Shown one piece after another: positions 6,796-40,732 of a stretch of 44,110 bases of DNA (positions within the stretch are counted from its first letter, which is position 1; every line of letters starts with the position of its first letter). Origin of the DNA: Candidatus Brocadia sp. (lineage in GTDB: Bacteria; Planctomycetota; Brocadiia; Brocadiales; Brocadiaceae); contig WYAU01000029.1 of the NCBI GenBank assembly GCA_011525665.1, forward strand, positions 1 through 44,110. The letters are read 5' to 3'. Position numbers and translations under genes: made by a program. The notes under the pieces were generated by a model. It saw only the letters and a list, made by a program, of their open reading frames with translations, ran no database searches and had not been told where the DNA came from.

Positions 6796-8943
6796 TTACA
6801 GTCGTTTTTCTTTTTTCATCCTGCTGATGCGCTTTTTGTTTTTAACAATCGACTTGTACGCAGGGGTGGAATCTGGACTAAAGGTTATCGTAATGGTGTC
6901 GGTTCCTGAATTTCCTGCACTATCTACGCTTGTAACCGTTATTATATTATCTCCGATTGAAAGGTTTATATTTGAAATTGACCAATTGTCCTTTCCACTT
7001 GCTGTCCCGTGGTACCCCTTATTGCTGTTCCAGGTAACGCTACCGATCCCGCTTGTGGTATCAGAAGAGACCCCGCTGATACTCACGTGGTTGACCGCTG
7101 TGGTATAACGTGAAAGGGATGTGGGGTTTTTGATGCTAACAAGGGGAGCAGACACATCCAATATAATTGAAGCACTCGAGACATCTGATATGTTATTCGA
7201 GGCATCTTTATAAAAGGCATAGAGTGTCTTATTTCCTTCTCCGCTGCTTAAGATATACTGAATATTGGAAGAAAAATTGGTAGTCGAAGCAACGGATACC
7301 CAGCCAGGGTCAGACGCCAGTGGTATATCAGAACTGGTAGTAATAAAATAGCCTGTTATCCCTCCATTGTCTGTTGCAGAAAGATTTAAGGTAACTGTAA
7401 CCACGTTGGTATACTCAGCGCCGCTGTTGATACTGAGAGAACCATTCGGCCTGCTGGCATCTGAAATCGTGGTAAAACTCCATGTGTAATCTGAGTCCAT
7501 CGTAGTTCCCGCGTAATTTGCAGCTTGTATTTTTTTCTTTAGTGTCGCGGTATATTTGGTATTGTATGCAAGGTTTGTAGATGGAGTAAAGGTAACAGTG
7601 GCTCCGTTTGTACTTACAGAACCTTTGACTACTCCATCACTGCTTTGCACTATAAACGTCTCTGAAGTAACTGTAGAACCGTTTACATACAGAGAAAATG
7701 TTGCAAATACGTTTGTACTGACAGCCACATTCTTTGCACCAGGAAAAGGATTCGTTGAGTTTACCTTTAATACGGTTTTGGGAAGAGGACCGTCCGAATC
7801 ACCTATGCCACCAGAACCATCGGTATCATCTGAATCATCAGCGCCGTCTGTGTCATGAGAATCTCCTGAGTATGATTGAATTACATATTTAAGATCATCG
7901 TTTGCAGCATCATAATAACTGATGCATATCTCATTTGAAATGCTCACTGCCAGAGAGGTATATCGTCCTACGTCTTCATCGTTATCCACGATGTCCGTTG
8001 TCCATACACCGGATGAATTCGTGGCATACTTGAGATAGCCGTTATCAAAATCATAATAGCTGATGTGGACAGATCCTGATGAGTCAACTGCCAGTGAGGT
8101 ATATCGCCCCACGTCCTCATCACTATCCACGATGGTTGTTACCCATGAGCCAGAGGCGTTTGTGGCGTATTTGAGATAGCCGTTATCATAATCATTATAG
8201 CTGATGTGGACTGCACCTGATGCGTCAACTGCCAGTGAGGTGTACCGCCCCACGTCCTCATCACTATCCACGATGGTTGTTACCCATGAGCCAGAGGCAT
8301 TTGTGGCGTATTTGAGTTCGCCATTATCATAATCATAATAGCTGATGTGAACTGCACCTGATGCGTCAACTGCCAGTGAGGTGTATTGCCCTGCATTTCC
8401 GCCACTATCCAGGGTGGTTATCACCCATGAGCCAGAGGTGTTTGTGGCGTATTTGAGTTCGCCATTATCATAATCATAATAGCTGATGTGAACTGCACCT
8501 GATGCGTCAACTGCCAGCGAGGTATATTGCCCTACATTTCCGCCACTATCCAGGGTGGTTATCACCCATGAGCCAGAGGCGTTTGTGGCATATTTGAGGC
8601 CATCCCCGGTTGTATCATAGTAGCTGATGTGCAAGGCGTCTGAGGAATCAACGGCTATTGAGCTATATCGCCCCACGTCTCCATTATTATCCGTGGTACT
8701 TGTCACCCAGGTGCCGGAAGCGTTAGTAGCATACTTGAGTGCACGGTTGGTCGCATCGTAATAGCTGATATGAGCTGCACCTGATGCATCAACCGCCAGG
8801 GAGGTATACCGGCCTACATATCCGCTGCTGTCCGGGGTATCCGGAATCCAATCGGCAAACGCATTACCGGCAGAATAACCCAATGTGAAAAAAACGAGGG
8901 AAAGAACAACCAAAAATATTTTACGGATCAAATGTCCCTGCAT
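6796..8943 (-). CDS. Secreted repeat protein: seven 47-residue repeats plus Ig-like domains
   Basis: A 715-residue protein with a clear signal peptide (KIFLVVLSLVFFTLGYSAGNAFA). Residues about 35-365 form seven repeats of 47 residues with the core VGRYTSLAVDASGAVHISYYD then LKYATN-x-SG-x-W, resembling BNR/sialidase-like propeller blades. An Asp/Ser/Gly linker leads to a Big_5/SbsA-type Ig-like domain (about 400-495) and two further Ig-like segments to about 690. The tail is lysine/arginine-rich with no PEP-CTERM signal. It is likely a surface or matrix adhesin; no enzymatic residues were identified. AAGGAGG precedes the ATG by 6 bases and abuts the terminator of riboswitch 2. Two tandem c-di-GMP riboswitches lie upstream, so strong ligand control is expected. 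Confidence 0.85.
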   Translation of the reverse strand: MQGHLIRKIFLVVLSLVFFTLGYSAGNAFADWIPDTPDSSGYVGRYTSLAVDASGAAHISYYDATNRALKYATNASGTWVTSTTDNNGDVGRYSSIAVDSSDALHISYYDTTGDGLKYATNASGSWVITTLDSGGNVGQYTSLAVDASGAVHISYYDYDNGELKYATNTSGSWVITTLDSGGNAGQYTSLAVDASGAVHISYYDYDNGELKYATNASGSWVTTIVDSDEDVGRYTSLAVDASGAVHISYNDYDNGYLKYATNASGSWVTTIVDSDEDVGRYTSLAVDSSGSVHISYYDFDNGYLKYATNSSGVWTTDIVDNDEDVGRYTSLAVSISNEICISYYDAANDDLKYVIQSYSGDSHDTDGADDSDDTDGSGGIGDSDGPLPKTVLKVNSTNPFPGAKNVAVSTNVFATFSLYVNGSTVTSETFIVQSSDGVVKGSVSTNGATVTFTPSTNLAYNTKYTATLKKKIQAANYAGTTMDSDYTWSFTTISDASRPNGSLSINSGAEYTNVVTVTLNLSATDNGGITGYFITTSSDIPLASDPGWVSVASTTNFSSNIQYILSSGEGNKTLYAFYKDASNNISDVSSASIILDVSAPLVSIKNPTSLSRYTTAVNHVSISGVSSDTTSGIGSVTWNSNKGYHGTASGKDNWSISNINLSIGDNIITVTSVDSAGNSGTDTITITFSPDSTPAYKSIVKNKKRISRMKKEKRL

Positions 8944-34031: not shown

Positions 34032-35504
34032 ATGATCTGGACAAAAGATTCATTAAAAGAACTTATTTCGAGTAAGCTCAGAGATTATAGGCTTATTATC
34101 GTGTCCAACCGTGAGCCGTACAGCCATACCTATGTGGGAGAAGAGATCAAATGCATCATACCGGCCAGCGGAATGGTCACGGCGCTGGATCCTATTATCC
34201 GGGCTGAAGGGGGTACATGGATAGCTTACGGGAGCGGTGACGCCGATAAGGAGGTAGTAGACGGCAACGACCGCATCGCCGTCCCCCCGGACAATCCGCA
34301 ATACACCCTGCGGAGGGTCTGGCTTACCCATGAGGAGGAGGAAAGGTTTTATTATGGTTTTTCCAATGAGGCGCTGTGGCCGCTGTGCCATATCGTGTAC
34401 GTCAAGCCCAAATTTCATGAGGCGGATTGGCTCGTCTACAAAGCGGTGAACCGGAAATTTGCAGAAGTCATTTTGGAAGAGGTTGGTAGCGACAGGGCAT
34501 TCGTTTTCATCCAGGACTACCATTTTACCTTGCTTCCCAAGATGTTAAAAGAAAGCAGGCCGGATTTGCTTGTGGCGCAGTTTTGGCATATTCCCTGGCC
34601 AAACAGGGAGGCGTTCCGTATATGCCCCTGGGGCCAGGAAATCCTGGAAGGGCTCCTCGGGAATGACCTCCTGGGATTCCACGTCCAGTACCATTGCAAC
34701 AATTTCCTCGATACCGTAGACAGAAACCTGGAGTCGAGAATCGATTATGGAAAATTTACCGCCACAAAAGGCGGAAAGACAACCCACATCCGGCCATTTC
34801 CCATCAGCATCGATTTTGATGACCTCAACCTGCAATCCCGGGGGAAAGACGTTGAAAATGAGATGGCGCGGATGAGAAGAGAGCTTGGCTTAAAAGGACA
34901 AATTATCGGCGTGGGGCTGGACCGGGTGGACTATACAAAGGGCATTCCTGAAAGGTTTAAAGCCATTGACAGATTTCTTGAAAAATACCCTGAATACAGA
35001 AACAGGTTTACCTTTATACAGGCAGGCACCATAAGCAGGATCCATATAGAGGATTATCGCGATTGCAACGACACGATATACGATTTGGTAAATGAGATTA
35101 ATCACAAATACCATAGAGGCAGGTGGACTCCCCTGCGACTGCTGAAATCACATTTTAACCGGATAAGTGTACAGGCCTTGTACCGTTTGTCGGATGTTTG
35201 TATCGTTAGCTCTTTGCACGACGGCATGAATCTGGTCGCCAAGGAGTTCATCTCTACCCGTTTCGATGAGTCCGGCGTACTGCTCCTCAGCCGTTTTACC
35301 GGAGCAGCCGAAGAACTTGCAGGCAGTATCCAAATCAATCCTTACGCAACCGATACCTTTGCTGAGGCAATAAAGACCGCCATTGAAATGCCCTCCGATG
35401 AAAAGAAGAAGAGGATGCAGCGTCTGAGAGAACATCTGCAGGAACATAATGTCTACAACTGGGGACAAAGCATCGTGAACGAATTGATCAAATTGCATCA
35501 ATGA
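34032..35504 (+). CDS. otsA: Trehalose-6-phosphate synthase (GT20)
   Basis: 490 residues, standard family length. It joins glucose from UDP- or ADP-glucose to glucose-6-phosphate in the cytoplasm. Signatures: SNREPY at 25-30, substrate-binding GVGLDRVDYTKGIPERF at about 292-308 with the catalytic Arg and Lys, and the nucleotide-sugar loop SLHDGMNLVAKEF at about 393-405. The stop overlaps the otsB start (ATGA). No clear ribosome site precedes the ATG. First gene of a four-gene trehalose cluster. Confidence 0.95.
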   Translation: MIWTKDSLKELISSKLRDYRLIIVSNREPYSHTYVGEEIKCIIPASGMVTALDPIIRAEGGTWIAYGSGDADKEVVDGNDRIAVPPDNPQYTLRRVWLTHEEEERFYYGFSNEALWPLCHIVYVKPKFHEADWLVYKAVNRKFAEVILEEVGSDRAFVFIQDYHFTLLPKMLKESRPDLLVAQFWHIPWPNREAFRICPWGQEILEGLLGNDLLGFHVQYHCNNFLDTVDRNLESRIDYGKFTATKGGKTTHIRPFPISIDFDDLNLQSRGKDVENEMARMRRELGLKGQIIGVGLDRVDYTKGIPERFKAIDRFLEKYPEYRNRFTFIQAGTISRIHIEDYRDCNDTIYDLVNEINHKYHRGRWTPLRLLKSHFNRISVQALYRLSDVCIVSSLHDGMNLVAKEFISTRFDESGVLLLSRFTGAAEELAGSIQINPYATDTFAEAIKTAIEMPSDEKKKRMQRLREHLQEHNVYNWGQSIVNELIKLHQ

Positions 35505-36346
35505 AATACGCATTCGACCATACTCACACAATTATGGACCTTGTCCGGGCTCACAGGAAAATAATTCTCTTGACGGATTTTGACGGCACCTTAACGCCCA
35601 TCCGGGAGCATCCTGATCTTGCAGTACTCCCCGGAGAAATGTACCGGATTTTACAAAATTTTTCCCGGAACAAGGCATTCTTTCTTGGTATAATAACGGG
35701 ACGTTCGCTCCGCCAGATAAAAAAACTGGTGAATATTCCGGGGATATTATATGCCGCCAATCATGGGATAGAACTGGAAGGGCCGGGTATACGGTTCAGC
35801 AGTTCGGAGGCCAAAAAGGCGCGTTGTAATCTCTGGCACGTTTATATGCGTCTCTTTAAATCCTTGCATCACATTGAAGGAATATACCTGGAAGATAAGG
35901 GCTATACCATCAGCCTGCATTACCGTTCAGTCAAAAAGGCCGGTGACGTGGAATTCATAACAAAGACACTCAGCGGCATTGTACAACCTTATGTTGAGAG
36001 AGACATCCTGTCCCTGAGTACGGGAAAGATGGTTTACGAGATACGCCCGCCGGTAAAATGGAACAAGGCAACCACGATTCAATGGTTACTGACCAATTAT
36101 TTTCCCCTGGAATTCAACGGGGACGCTCTTCTTGTCTATCTGGGAGATGATCAGGCCGATATAGAAGTATTTACTGCTTTGAGCGGGAAAAGATTGATGA
36201 TCTTCGTTGGGACGCCGTCGGATACATCCGCAGCCGATTACTTTGTCAACTCACCCGAAGAGGTCAAGGCGTTTTTGGAAATTCTTTATACGCAAAAGGA
36301 AGAGGACGGCAATGGGACCCTTAGCGAGGGCAAAAGAGCCATTTAG
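35501..36346 (+). CDS. otsB: Trehalose-6-phosphate phosphatase
   Basis: 281 residues of the HAD superfamily. The nucleophile motif is TDFDGTLTP (Asp26, Asp28). Other motifs: ITGRS at about 65-69, ANHGIELEGPG at about 86-96, and GDDQADIEVF near 225-234 for Mg2+ binding. It removes phosphate from trehalose-6-phosphate. It starts within the otsA stop codon (ATGA overlap), so the two are translationally coupled, and its end overlaps the next gene by 35 bases. Confidence 0.95.
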   Translation: MKYAFDHTHTIMDLVRAHRKIILLTDFDGTLTPIREHPDLAVLPGEMYRILQNFSRNKAFFLGIITGRSLRQIKKLVNIPGILYAANHGIELEGPGIRFSSSEAKKARCNLWHVYMRLFKSLHHIEGIYLEDKGYTISLHYRSVKKAGDVEFITKTLSGIVQPYVERDILSLSTGKMVYEIRPPVKWNKATTIQWLLTNYFPLEFNGDALLVYLGDDQADIEVFTALSGKRLMIFVGTPSDTSAADYFVNSPEEVKAFLEILYTQKEEDGNGTLSEGKRAI

Positions 36347-37028
36347 ATTCTGTACGCAGACCCATATACCGGAACTTACCGGACTAAAGGCAAATAACCT
36401 GCAGGAGTTGTTGGACCACATAAAAACAGTTCCGGGGTCAGTTATCTATCATCATACCCACCATTTTCTCCAGCAGCATCAGTATTTATCACCGGAACCT
36501 CCCAACGATTTTGCCTATTGGATTACCGGTATTTTGGGAGAAGAAGTGCTCGGAGAGGCATTGTTCAGTATTGACACGATTCAATACACAACCATCCGCG
36601 AGCTCCGCAATGAAATTATTCGGACCATTGATAATTACGTGGAAAAACACCCCAAATCGCTTCAAAAATTTGCGACAACGGGAGAAGATTTCCATTTTGT
36701 AAAGTCCGTCAGCTTCGTTTTTCAGACACCCTATATTGTATCGGACCTCAAGGAATTCCAGGCCGCCCTCCAGAGGGTAACGCTTGAGTCTATCTATTTT
36801 CACATGTTTGAAGCCAGGCTTCGCATAGGGATAGGCACCAATGATTTCTCCAATTGGCTTGAACACAGTCTGTCAGAAAATAAACTTGCAAACAAAATCG
36901 CATCGCTGGACCCCTACACCCATACCATGGAAAACCTGAGATTTGCCCTGGTAAAATTAATAGAAAAAAGAATAGTTGAACTTTCTTTAGAGGAATTTCC
37001 CGTCAGGGTGACACTGCAAAACCACTAA
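36312..37028 (+). CDS. DUF5752-like protein in the trehalose cluster
   Basis: 238 residues. It starts at ATG 36312, overlapping otsB by 35 bases (GGAAGAGG before it). Text such as PFRFCTQTHIPELTGLKANN, HHTHHFLQQHQYL and FVFQTPYIVSDLKEF resembles, from memory, the DUF5752 family, which often sits next to TreT-type trehalose synthases. It is soluble and alpha-helical with a His-rich patch at about 45-60. No catalytic assignment is possible. Its place between otsB and treT suggests a role in trehalose synthesis or its control. Confidence 0.7.
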   Translation: MGPLARAKEPFRFCTQTHIPELTGLKANNLQELLDHIKTVPGSVIYHHTHHFLQQHQYLSPEPPNDFAYWITGILGEEVLGEALFSIDTIQYTTIRELRNEIIRTIDNYVEKHPKSLQKFATTGEDFHFVKSVSFVFQTPYIVSDLKEFQAALQRVTLESIYFHMFEARLRIGIGTNDFSNWLEHSLSENKLANKIASLDPYTHTMENLRFALVKLIEKRIVELSLEEFPVRVTLQNH

Positions 37029-37163
37029 GCCGCGAAGGAATCGGAAGAGACAGTCAAACGGGATTTACGACGGGGGATTTAAAAAATCACATATCCCAAA
37101 TCCCCACCCGTGAATTTTTGCCGAAAATGTTCGAACACAGATTTTAAGACGTTTTGAGACGCT

Positions 37164-38387
37164 ATGCCAAAAATTACTGAATATGAATCCATCGTGGGCC
37201 CCAACACCCTTGAAGAATTGAAATTACTGGCGGGGAAACTCCAGGGGAAACTTATCCAGAACATCAACTCTACGGCCGTTGGCGGCGGCGTTGCGGAGAT
37301 TCTCAATCGTATGGTGCCTCTGTTGCAGGAATTAGGGGTGGATGCCCGATGGGATTTCATCAAGGGTGGCGAGGATTTTTTCAACGTCACCAAGAAATTT
37401 CACAACGCCTTGCACGGTAAACAGGAGGAGATTACCCCGCAGATGTTTGAAACATTCATGGAAACAAGCCTCCGGAATATTGACGAGGTGAAGACCTACG
37501 GGGACGTTGTGTTCATCCACGACCCCCAACCCGTCGTGCTGATTAAAAAAAAGGCCTCCATCCCGGACAGCAAATGGATCTGGCGATGCCATATCGACGT
37601 CTCTACGCCCCACAAGCAGGTCTGGAATTTTTTGACGCCCTTTGTTCACCAATATGACGCCGCTGTCTTTTCTGCCCCGAACTTTTCACAACCATTGCCC
37701 ATCAGGCAATTTCTGATACCGCCATCAATCGATCCTTTAAGCGATAAAAACAGGGAATTACCACAAGAAACGGTCGATGCAGTCCTGGAAAAATATCATA
37801 TTCCCAAAGACAAACCCATTATTACCCAGATCTCACGATTCGATTATCTCAAAGATCCCATCGGCGTTATCGAGGCTTATCGCTTGGTGAAAAAGCGCAT
37901 AGACTGTCAACTCATTATTGCCGGCGGGACGGCTGCAGACGACCCGGAATCGACCAGGGTCTTTGCAGAGACAAAGGAAGCGGCAGGCAATGACGTCGAC
38001 ATACACATTCTCCCCATCCCTTCCGGCAGCGATATCGAGATCAATGCGCTCCAGAGGGCGTCTACCGTCATTGTTCAAAAATCACTGCGTGAAGGATTTG
38101 GGCTTACCATAACCGAGGCATTATGGAAGGCAAAACCGGTCGTTGCGTCCGGCACGGGGGGTATCCCTTTACAGATCAGGCATAAATACAGCGGTCTCTT
38201 GTGTCATAGTGTCGCCGGAGCGGCTTTCTCCATCAAACAGTTATTAAATAGTACGGAATACGCCAAAAAACTCGGCGAGAACGGACGCGAACACATCAAG
38301 CAGAACTTCCTTCTCACCCGGCATTTAAAGGACTACATGCTCCTGTTTCTGTGCATGTACCATCCCGAAGATATTGTTTACTTATAA
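37164..38387 (+). CDS. treT: TreT-type trehalose synthase (GT4)
   Basis: 407 residues. The N-terminal glycosyltransferase fold carries QNINSTAVGGGVAEIL at 32-47, the hallmark of TreT, and the C-terminal half holds QISRFDYLKDP near 220-230 and SLREGFGLTITEAL near 307-320 with the EX7E Glu pair. TreT makes trehalose from NDP-glucose and glucose in one step and can run in reverse. It lies 135 bases after the DUF5752-like gene; only a weak ribosome site is seen. With otsAB in the same cluster the cell has two synthesis routes. Confidence 0.9.
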   Translation: MPKITEYESIVGPNTLEELKLLAGKLQGKLIQNINSTAVGGGVAEILNRMVPLLQELGVDARWDFIKGGEDFFNVTKKFHNALHGKQEEITPQMFETFMETSLRNIDEVKTYGDVVFIHDPQPVVLIKKKASIPDSKWIWRCHIDVSTPHKQVWNFLTPFVHQYDAAVFSAPNFSQPLPIRQFLIPPSIDPLSDKNRELPQETVDAVLEKYHIPKDKPIITQISRFDYLKDPIGVIEAYRLVKKRIDCQLIIAGGTAADDPESTRVFAETKEAAGNDVDIHILPIPSGSDIEINALQRASTVIVQKSLREGFGLTITEALWKAKPVVASGTGGIPLQIRHKYSGLLCHSVAGAAFSIKQLLNSTEYAKKLGENGREHIKQNFLLTRHLKDYMLLFLCMYHPEDIVYL

Positions 38388-39048: not shown

Positions 39049-40110
39049 ATGAAATTAACATTTAATTTATTAATAATTGCGTTAGTAACAAGTTTTTTCT
39101 CTATAGGATGTGAAAGGGCAAAGGAGGCAGTTGAGGAAAAAGAGATATCTGAAATTACCGTGGAAGAAGGAATAATAGCCGAAAAAATGGCCAACGAACT
39201 CTGGAATAAAATCCAGAATGAGAAATACTGGATCAACTGGAAGATGTGGCCAGGCAAAGAGGCTTTTTATAAAGGAAAAGAACCTCATGGGGCTTTACTA
39301 ACTACATACGTAAATGATGCATCCCTTGAGACAATTATACAGAAAAAGGGACAGATGCCCCCTGGGGCGATAATAATTGAAGAAAACTATATGCCTGATA
39401 AAACCCTTGACTCTATAACTGTAATGCACAAAGTAGAAGGTTTTAATCCTAAGGTAAATGACTGGTTCTGGGTTAAATTTGGACCGGATGGCAAGATCGC
39501 AACTGCTGAAAAATATGGCCAGACCCTGATGTTGGCGGGTAAAGTTGCAGCTTGTATTGAGTGTCACGGTGAACAAAGTGCTAATGACTACATCTTTACA
39601 AGCACCTTGAAGGAAGAAGTGTCAGAAGCTGGAAAAGTGGAAAAGGAAATATCCGACACTGAAAAAATGGCTAATGAACTCTGGGATAAAATGCAGAATG
39701 AAAATTACCGGTTAAACTGGAAGATGTGGCCAGGCAAGGAGGCATTCTATGAAGGAAAGGAACCACATGGGAATTACCTGACTACTTATGTAAATGCCGC
39801 CGCCCTCGAGGTAATTGTGCAAAAAAAGGAAAAGATGCCTCCCGGAGCGATAATTATTAAAGAAAATTACCTGCCAGATAAAAATATTGATTCAATAACT
39901 GTGATGTATAAGATCGAGGGTTTTGATCCTGATGACTTCGATTGGTTCTGGGTTAAATTTGCACCAAGCGGTAAAGTCATGGCTGAAGAAAAAGATGGCG
40001 AGACCGTAACGCTGGCCGGTAAAGTTGCTAACTGCATAGAATGTCATGGGAAACAAACGAGTAACGATTATATTTTTACAAGCCCTTTGAAGTTAGAGCA
40101 CATGTATTAA
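39049..40110 (+). CDS. Lipoprotein with two tandem cytochrome P460 domains
   Basis: 353 residues. Lipobox FFSIGC with Cys21 anchors it to a membrane on the periplasmic side. Two P460-type domains repeat with an exact 160-residue period (about 45-185 and 205-345): NWKMWPGKEAF, KEPHG, TTYVN, MPPGAIII, DWFWVKF, then heme motif CIECH (Cys169/Cys172/His173 and Cys329/Cys332/His333). Cytochromes P460 oxidise hydroxylamine or bind NO through a heme cross-linked to Lys. In the place that appears to match the cross-link Lys, domain 2 has Lys271 (IIIKENY) but domain 1 has Glu111 (IIIEENY). GGAGGAGGG precedes the ATG. It lies behind riboswitch 6 and DUF1328. Confidence 0.88.
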   Translation: MKLTFNLLIIALVTSFFSIGCERAKEAVEEKEISEITVEEGIIAEKMANELWNKIQNEKYWINWKMWPGKEAFYKGKEPHGALLTTYVNDASLETIIQKKGQMPPGAIIIEENYMPDKTLDSITVMHKVEGFNPKVNDWFWVKFGPDGKIATAEKYGQTLMLAGKVAACIECHGEQSANDYIFTSTLKEEVSEAGKVEKEISDTEKMANELWDKMQNENYRLNWKMWPGKEAFYEGKEPHGNYLTTYVNAAALEVIVQKKEKMPPGAIIIKENYLPDKNIDSITVMYKIEGFDPDDFDWFWVKFAPSGKVMAEEKDGETVTLAGKVANCIECHGKQTSNDYIFTSPLKLEHMY

Positions 40111-40187: not shown

Positions 40188-40270
40188 TGTAAAACAAAGA
40201 TAAGGCCAATTTATTTACATTACTCTGGTAAAAATTGAGCGGCTTAACAGGAACCAGAAAGGGAGAAACC

Positions 40271-40732
40271 GTGAAAAAAATAGAATTCGCGCTAGCGCTG
40301 GTTTTTTCTTTATTTTTTGTTACTGCCTGTAATCAGAAGGAACCTTACAAACCTGAAACGCTTAACAAAACTGAAACAGAGGTGTCGTCTGAAGATGTCA
40401 AACGTCAAACAGGAGAAGCCCTTGAAACAACCAAAAATTATCTGAGACAAAAAAAGGAGGAATACCAGATGCACCTGGAAGACAGGATGAAAGATCTCGA
40501 AAACAAAATAAAAGAATTGGAACAGCAGGCAGAAAAAGCAGGTGAAGAAGCCAAGGATAAATTTATTGAAACAATCGAATCATTGCGAAAAAAGCAGAGA
40601 GAAGCGAGAGAAAAATTAGAGAATCTCAAGTCGGCAGGCGCTGATGCCTGGGAGGATCTCAAGGCTGGAACGGAGACTGCCCTTGAAAGTCTGAAAAAAG
40701 CATACACGGATGCAGTTTCGCGTTTTAAATAA
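40271..40732 (+). CDS. Coiled-coil lipoprotein
   Basis: 153 residues. The start is GTG 40271, with GGGAG 5 bases upstream; a TTG at 40235 is less likely. Signal peptide with lipobox FFVTAC. The rest (about 40-150) is highly charged alpha-helix with heptads (EDRMKDLENKIKELEQQAEKA), a long coiled coil ending in LKKAYTDAVSRFK. It may be a periplasmic spacer or envelope-tether protein like Lpp or apolipoprotein-like proteins. Function is unknown. Separated from the P460 gene by a hairpin. Confidence 0.85.
   Translation: MKKIEFALALVFSLFFVTACNQKEPYKPETLNKTETEVSSEDVKRQTGEALETTKNYLRQKKEEYQMHLEDRMKDLENKIKELEQQAEKAGEEAKDKFIETIESLRKKQREAREKLENLKSAGADAWEDLKAGTETALESLKKAYTDAVSRFK

Follow-up and report, generated by a model that had tools for sequence, protein, structure and literature searches.

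A tandem cytochrome P460-fold lipoprotein of Brocadiaceae with the candidate heme cross-link lysine in one of its two domains

The contribution of the lysine-heme cross-link to the properties of cytochromes P460 has so far been studied through mutants of single-domain proteins and through comparison of separate proteins. The stretch of DNA analyzed here (the window, 44,110 nucleotides of contig WYAU01000029.1 from Candidatus Brocadia sp.) encodes a protein with duplicated P460 domains, only one of which appears to carry the cross-link lysine, and raises the question of what kind of heme each domain holds. A preliminary description of the locus proposed a true P460 heme combined with a cytochrome c'-beta-like heme. 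We examined this proposal by residue-level comparison with the characterized members of the superfamily, by analysis of 33 Brocadiaceae genomes including that of the window (G000; 3.63 Mb in 111 contigs), and by inspection of the genomic context.

The open reading frame starts with ATG and encodes a predicted lipoprotein with two cytochrome P460 domains (Table 1). The Pfam family PF16694 matches the protein twice, with an overall E of 4e-20; scored separately, the halves reach 39.0 and 41.6 bits, both above the family cut-off of 27, and the match was recovered in all 15 family members tested. The DNA repeat has a spacing of 480 nt, with 79% identity across 300 ungapped nt, and 105 of 146 residues (72%) are identical between domains 1 and 2 in a gap-free alignment, with the two CIECH motifs offset by exactly 160 residues; the period and the retention of both heme-binding motifs, as initially described, are thus borne out. 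We classify the predicted protein as a lineage-restricted, multi-domain member of the P460/c'-beta superfamily in Brocadiaceae. No tandem P460 was seen outside this family in a search of 392 Planctomycetota genomes with domain 2, and no description of tandem or multi-domain P460 proteins, or of P460-domain proteins in anammox bacteria, was found in the open literature, with few subscription journals covered. The explanation that appears best as a whole, which we hold tentatively and with somewhat less than even confidence, derives the tandem gene from a single-domain P460 lipoprotein gene that was duplicated in tandem. In one relative (G013; L078, 4489-7994), two single-domain P460 lipoprotein genes of the tandem-related clade, both with the lysine, lie 2.3 kb apart, an arrangement that may represent a precursor of the duplication or an alternative to it.

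Table 1. Features of the tandem P460 gene and its immediate neighbors, in window coordinates
Feature	Position	Strand	Basis
Tandem cytochrome P460-fold lipoprotein gene, 353 aa, two c-type hemes expected	39049..40110	+	Open reading frame; two PF16694 matches; Brocadiaceae orthologues 49-81% identical
Signal peptide with lipobox SIG-C21; MKLTFNLLIIALVTSFFSIGC; lipoprotein signal MKLTFNLLIIALVTSFFSIG-C	39049..39111	+	Sequence; C21 conserved without exception in 15 family members
P460 domain 1, about aa 41-192: His80 cap, Glu111 cross-link position, Thr124 carboxylate position, CIECH 169-173	39169..39624	+	
P460 domain 2, about aa 199-352: His240 cap, Lys271 cross-link position, Thr284 carboxylate position, CIECH 329-333	39643..40104	+	
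Codon GAA, Glu111, equivalent of NeP460 Lys70	39379..39381	+	Alignment
Codon AAA, Lys271, candidate heme cross-link lysine	39859..39861	+	Alignment
DUF1328 small membrane protein, directly upstream of the P460 gene	38796..38966	+	PF07043, E 3e-13
Coiled-coil lipoprotein, directly downstream of the P460 gene; homologue also after the G004 orthologue	40235..40732	+	

The cross-link position was located by alignment to solved structures. Lys70 of the Nitrosomonas europaea protein (NeP460) is the K of the segment GTVTVKE in 2je2/8gar, and the segment GTVIV-F61 of the Thermus thermophilus cytochrome c'-beta (TtCP-beta, 7ead) aligns with this position. The NeP460 query sequence was compared with PDB, where it matches 2je2 over its full length with few differences; the residue numbering is anchored by the R44A mutant entry 8gar, and the positions of 7ead taken from the PDB alignment (Phe29, Phe61 and Gly82) are the same as in the published numbering (PMC11928373, Table 2). 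The equivalent segment is PPGAIII-K271-ENY in domain 2 and PPGAIII-E111-ENY in domain 1, in agreement with the IIIKENY and IIIEENY assignment originally made for the two domains. No other lysine of domain 1 occupies the cross-link position or could substitute there: the 146-residue alignment of the two domains has no gaps, which rules out an alternative domain 1 lysine. Given the Lys/Glu asymmetry at the correct position, domain 1 would be unable to form the lysine cross-link and domain 2 could form it, its heme being a potential Lys cross-linked heme. The asymmetry is well beyond chance given the repeat itself, the two CXXCH motifs, the retention of this architecture in four two-domain orthologues and the low dN/dS reported below.

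Glu111 is one base away from lysine (GAA against AAA), the genome is a draft assembly in 111 contigs, and the codon is AAA in the same-genus relatives G002 and G004, as would be expected if a single A to G assembly or sequencing error concealed a species that has lysine in both domains. Such an error is very improbable in view of ACA (Thr) at the same codon in G011 and of three more proteins without lysine in their front domains. It is this different loss in a near relative, in particular, that argues for the losses at this site being real.

Lipoproteins with two or three P460 domains are encoded in 10 of the 33 Brocadiaceae genomes. At the cross-link position, the two-domain proteins read Glu-Lys (G000), Thr-Lys (G011) and Lys-Lys (G002 and G004), and the three-domain proteins read Thr-Ala-Lys (G009), Thr-Thr-Lys (G020 and G025) and Lys-Lys-Lys (G015, G022 and G026). 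The last domain keeps the lysine in all 10 multi-domain proteins, as do all 18 single-domain relatives (those in G003, G014, G027, G013 and G025, and likewise the second paralogue found in most genomes, which in G000 lies on contig 66); among the front domains, 8 of 16, spread over five proteins, have Glu, Thr or Ala instead. A division into P460 and non-P460 domains, as suggested by the window protein, is accordingly not a family-wide trait, given that two close relatives have the lysine in both domains and three proteins have it in all three.

In a maximum-likelihood tree of 44 domains, computed with the cross-link column left out, three changes between lysine and other residues are needed. 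In the clade of two-domain proteins, G000 (Glu) and G011 (Thr) stand beside G002 and G004 (Lys), so that the lysine was either lost twice or lost once and later regained, and a separate loss is found in the front domains of G009, G020 and G025; as reconstructed from this tree, the front-domain lysine was lost by at least two or three events. The chance that random losses would spare every last domain is 1/108 (p ~0.009) if the five proteins are treated as independent and about 1/12 (p ~0.08) if shared ancestry reduces them to three events, so that the bias of the losses toward front domains is suggestive but not proven. Among the four two-domain orthologues, dN/dS ranges from 0.13 to 0.26 in domain 1 and from 0.16 to 0.28 in domain 2; given these low values, the two domains are under similar purifying selection and domain 1 is maintained by it. 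Decay of domain 1 as a superfluous copy is ruled out by the retention of CIECH, of the histidine cap described below and of the low dN/dS.

The remainder of the heme pocket departs from the characterized proteins in both domains. The cap position, placed seven residues before the Tyr of Y-V-N across an ungapped interval and aligned to Phe29 of TtCP-beta, is occupied by His80 in domain 1 and His240 in domain 2. The position of the distal carboxylate, Glu96 in NeP460, is occupied by Thr124 and Thr284; this assignment uses the phmmer alignment with 7ead together with the conservation of the M-x-K spacing, and a MAFFT alignment that moves the carboxylate strand by one residue places Ile there, likewise non-acidic. 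The position of Arg44, the residue that assists formation of the heme-Lys linkage in NeP460, is Leu. In the 44 domains compared from the family and the order, a His cap is found 36 times, including all 32 domains of the tandem-related clade, and the others have Pro (6) or Ala (2). The carboxylate site has Thr in 40 domains and an acidic residue in none. At the cross-link site there are 36 domains with Lys, 6 with Thr and one each with Ala and Glu.

An AlphaFold model built with 15 family sequences predicts two copies of a domain consisting of a helix and a beta-sheet, with a mean pLDDT of 63.6. The strands that carry Glu111 and Lys271 are predicted better (ten-residue blocks averaging pLDDT 76-84) and the cap loops worse (residues 77-81 and 234-241, pLDDT below 50), so the histidine cap rests on the ungapped sequence alignment. 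The best structural matches of the model in PDB are TtCP-beta (Z 10.0), McP460 (9.2), McCP-beta (9.0) and NeCP-beta (8.9), with the entries 7ead, 6hiu, 7s5o and 6hih at Z 8.8-10, NeP460 and NsP460 at Z 7-8, and unrelated proteins at 5.8 and below. The predicted fold is thus the beta-rich P460/c'-beta fold, with moderate model confidence.

Hydroxylamine and NO are both handled by anammox cells. This, together with the presence of Lys271 and with a Glu111 that could not be cross-linked, is what would recommend the functional model of the preliminary description, namely a catalytic, hydroxylamine-oxidizing P460 heme in domain 2 and a c'-beta-like heme for electron transfer or NO binding in domain 1. 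Hydroxylamine oxidation by P460 enzymes, however, needs the distal carboxylate (Glu96 in NeP460 and Asp102 in McP460), which both hydroxylamine-oxidizing cytochromes P460 in the published comparison carry (PMC11928373, Table 2), and NsP460 lacks the carboxylate and is inactive in spite of its cross-link (PMC11928373). Because Thr replaces the carboxylate of the active cytochromes P460, domain 2 would by these published rules hold a potential cross-linked heme and not be a standard hydroxylamine oxidase. Characterized cytochromes c'-beta have Phe or Met at the cross-link position, with Leu, Val and Ile also occurring, in a mostly hydrophobic pocket; the cap is Phe or Arg in all structurally characterized members of the superfamily, and an apparent c'-beta with Glu at the cross-link position is mentioned but called unstudied (PMC11928373, a 2025 review). 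Domain 1 shares with the c'-beta proteins the absence of the cross-link lysine but neither the hydrophobic residue at this position nor the Phe/Arg cap, and by the same rules would be neither a P460 nor a typical c'-beta; its assignment as a standard c'-beta is ruled out by residue class (Glu111 and the histidine cap). Of the original proposal, the Lys/Glu asymmetry is rightly placed, whereas a true P460 in the catalytic sense finds no support, given Thr124 and Thr284 and Leu at the Arg44 position, nor does the c'-beta-like label for a domain with Glu (Thr or Ala in relatives) under a histidine cap. Considering also that close relatives have the lysine in both domains, we regard the combination of a catalytic P460 with a c'-beta as distinctly unlikely.

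NeP460 (2je2/2je3) and McP460 of Methylococcus capsulatus (6hiu) share with the window protein the PF16694 fold, the CXXCH c-type heme and, for domain 2 only, the cross-link lysine. They are single-domain proteins with a distal carboxylate (Glu96/Asp102, Thr in the window domains), a Phe41/Arg50 cap (His in the window domains) and, in NeP460, Arg44 (Leu in the window domains). NsP460 of Nitrosomonas sp. AL212 (6amg), like domain 2, has the cross-link lysine without the distal carboxylate and, judging by these residues, would be its nearest characterized analogue, although it is a single-domain protein with a Phe cap and a hydrophobic pocket. The closest solved structure by sequence and fold is TtCP-beta (28% identity, Z 10), which resembles domain 1 in having neither the lysine nor the carboxylate (Gly82), but combines Phe29 and Phe61 in a hydrophobic pocket where domain 1 has His80 and Glu111. 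The same genome also encodes a single-domain P460 (contig 66, 93816-94097; L001) that matches PF16694, keeps the lysine and has Thr at the carboxylate position; it differs in its Pro cap and is about 46-49% identical to the window domains. Orthologues of this protein are widespread in the family and the order.

The histidine cap itself invites the reading that it ligates the iron, giving bis-His hemes in a plain electron-transfer or heme-storage lipoprotein whose cross-link position drifts because it is unimportant. The cap is indeed present in all 32 clade domains and the front-domain residue varies (Glu, Thr or Ala), but a lysine that is never lost from last or single domains is not drifting freely, and the distal iron site is open in the solved members of the fold; this reading appears improbable.

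The immediate surroundings of the gene include, besides the neighbors in Table 1, genes for a SYLF-domain (YSC84-like) protein and for trehalose synthesis. The trehalose genes form a row of three (34032-38387; OtsA-like, OtsB-like and a TreT-like trehalose synthase) that is conserved in G004. In G002 and G011, no more than 3 kb separates the tandem P460 gene from a catalase gene (L067, 1427-2950; L068, 3071-4594), and a rubrerythrin gene lies about 3.4 kb from the G020 orthologue. The neighbors of other orthologues differ, so that the surroundings vary between genera, and no operon of nitrogen-cycle enzymes was found near the window copy or the orthologues. Altogether, the gene context weakly suggests stress conditions, perhaps involving peroxide. 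This is of interest in view of the NeP460 cross-link, which requires peroxide to form and is not made when the protein is expressed anaerobically (PMC11928373). At the genome level, a catalase gene is absent from G015, G022 and G026, which have the lysine in all three domains, and present in all five genomes with a lysine-less front domain, these lineages not being independent.

Several further observations concern the neighborhoods and the host. Downstream of three three-domain P460 genes, there are one or two similar proteins of about 318-349 aa (L070, 5478-6434 and 4333-5292; L072, 7939-9951; L069, 8174-9223) with a membrane segment such as SGYLGSNYLKERA and, in those tested, without a Pfam match; they are a possible conserved partner of the three-domain P460. 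Elsewhere in the window (6796-8943), a large predicted secreted protein contains repeated YTSLAVDASGAVHISYYD units followed by more repeat-like stretches. The host belongs to an anammox family, the Brocadiaceae, and a named relative, at 79% identity, is 'Candidatus Brocadia sp.'. Hydrazine synthase alpha (PF18582) was detected in 19 of the 33 genomes, in two equal-scoring copies in several near-complete relatives, and was not found on any contig of G000, an assembly scored 99.94% complete. Draft assemblies often lose such repeats, and the gene is probably missing for this reason; its absence bears on whether the G000 species can be called anammox-competent.

The unequal hemes, the invariant distal histidine and the catalase or rubrerythrin genes near some orthologues would all fit a diheme peroxidase built on the P460 fold, in which one heme would have the histidine for acid-base catalysis and its partner would donate electrons, as in bacterial diheme cytochrome c peroxidases. 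NeCP-beta, with its polar Arg cap, has peroxidase-like activity; Lys70 or its cross-link, on the other hand, is tied to suppression of such activity (PMC11928373), histidine-capped single-domain relatives exist, and the context differs across genera. On balance, a dedicated diheme peroxidase is unlikely.

We therefore return to the duplicated lipoprotein, which we tentatively interpret, short of even confidence, as a membrane-anchored two-heme protein, ligand-binding or peroxide-reactive, with one cross-linkable and one non-cross-linkable heme. When peroxide is present, the domain 2 heme could become a Lys-linked P460 heme of low potential, and the domain 1 heme would stay an ordinary five-coordinate or His-capped c-type heme of higher potential. 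A difference in potential between the two hemes is expected by analogy with NeP460, where replacement of Lys70 by Ala shifts the potential from -400 to -290 mV (PMC11928373, Table 3). Efficient hydroxylamine oxidation would be expected of neither heme. Together they would most likely serve in stress defense on the outer face of a membrane, binding or turning over NO or peroxide. The conserved reactive site would then be the cross-linkable C-terminal heme, and the front domain or domains would be tuned as its partner, capturing ligand or supplying electrons. Handling of NO or peroxide at the membrane appears more likely than hydroxylamine oxidation. A further, speculative and rather unlikely extension is that anammox bacteria have evolved a histidine-capped, multi-heme form of the P460 fold whose single chain holds two kinds of heme that differ solely in the Lys cross-link. 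The C-terminal heme would be cross-linked and of low potential, the front hemes would lack the link, and all would act jointly, for example as a peroxide or NO reductase.

The window protein presents both cross-link states in one chain, in domains that are 72% identical and have the same cap, and its relatives provide a natural series of Lys-Lys, Glu-Lys, Thr-Lys, Thr-Ala-Lys and Thr-Thr-Lys proteins. According to the 2025 review, the histidine cap occurs in no solved member, and Glu at the cross-link site is noted there as uninvestigated (PMC11928373). The anoxic lifestyle of the host, set against the peroxide requirement of the NeP460 cross-link, makes formation of the link in anammox cells, a group that normally lives without oxygen, a pointed question.
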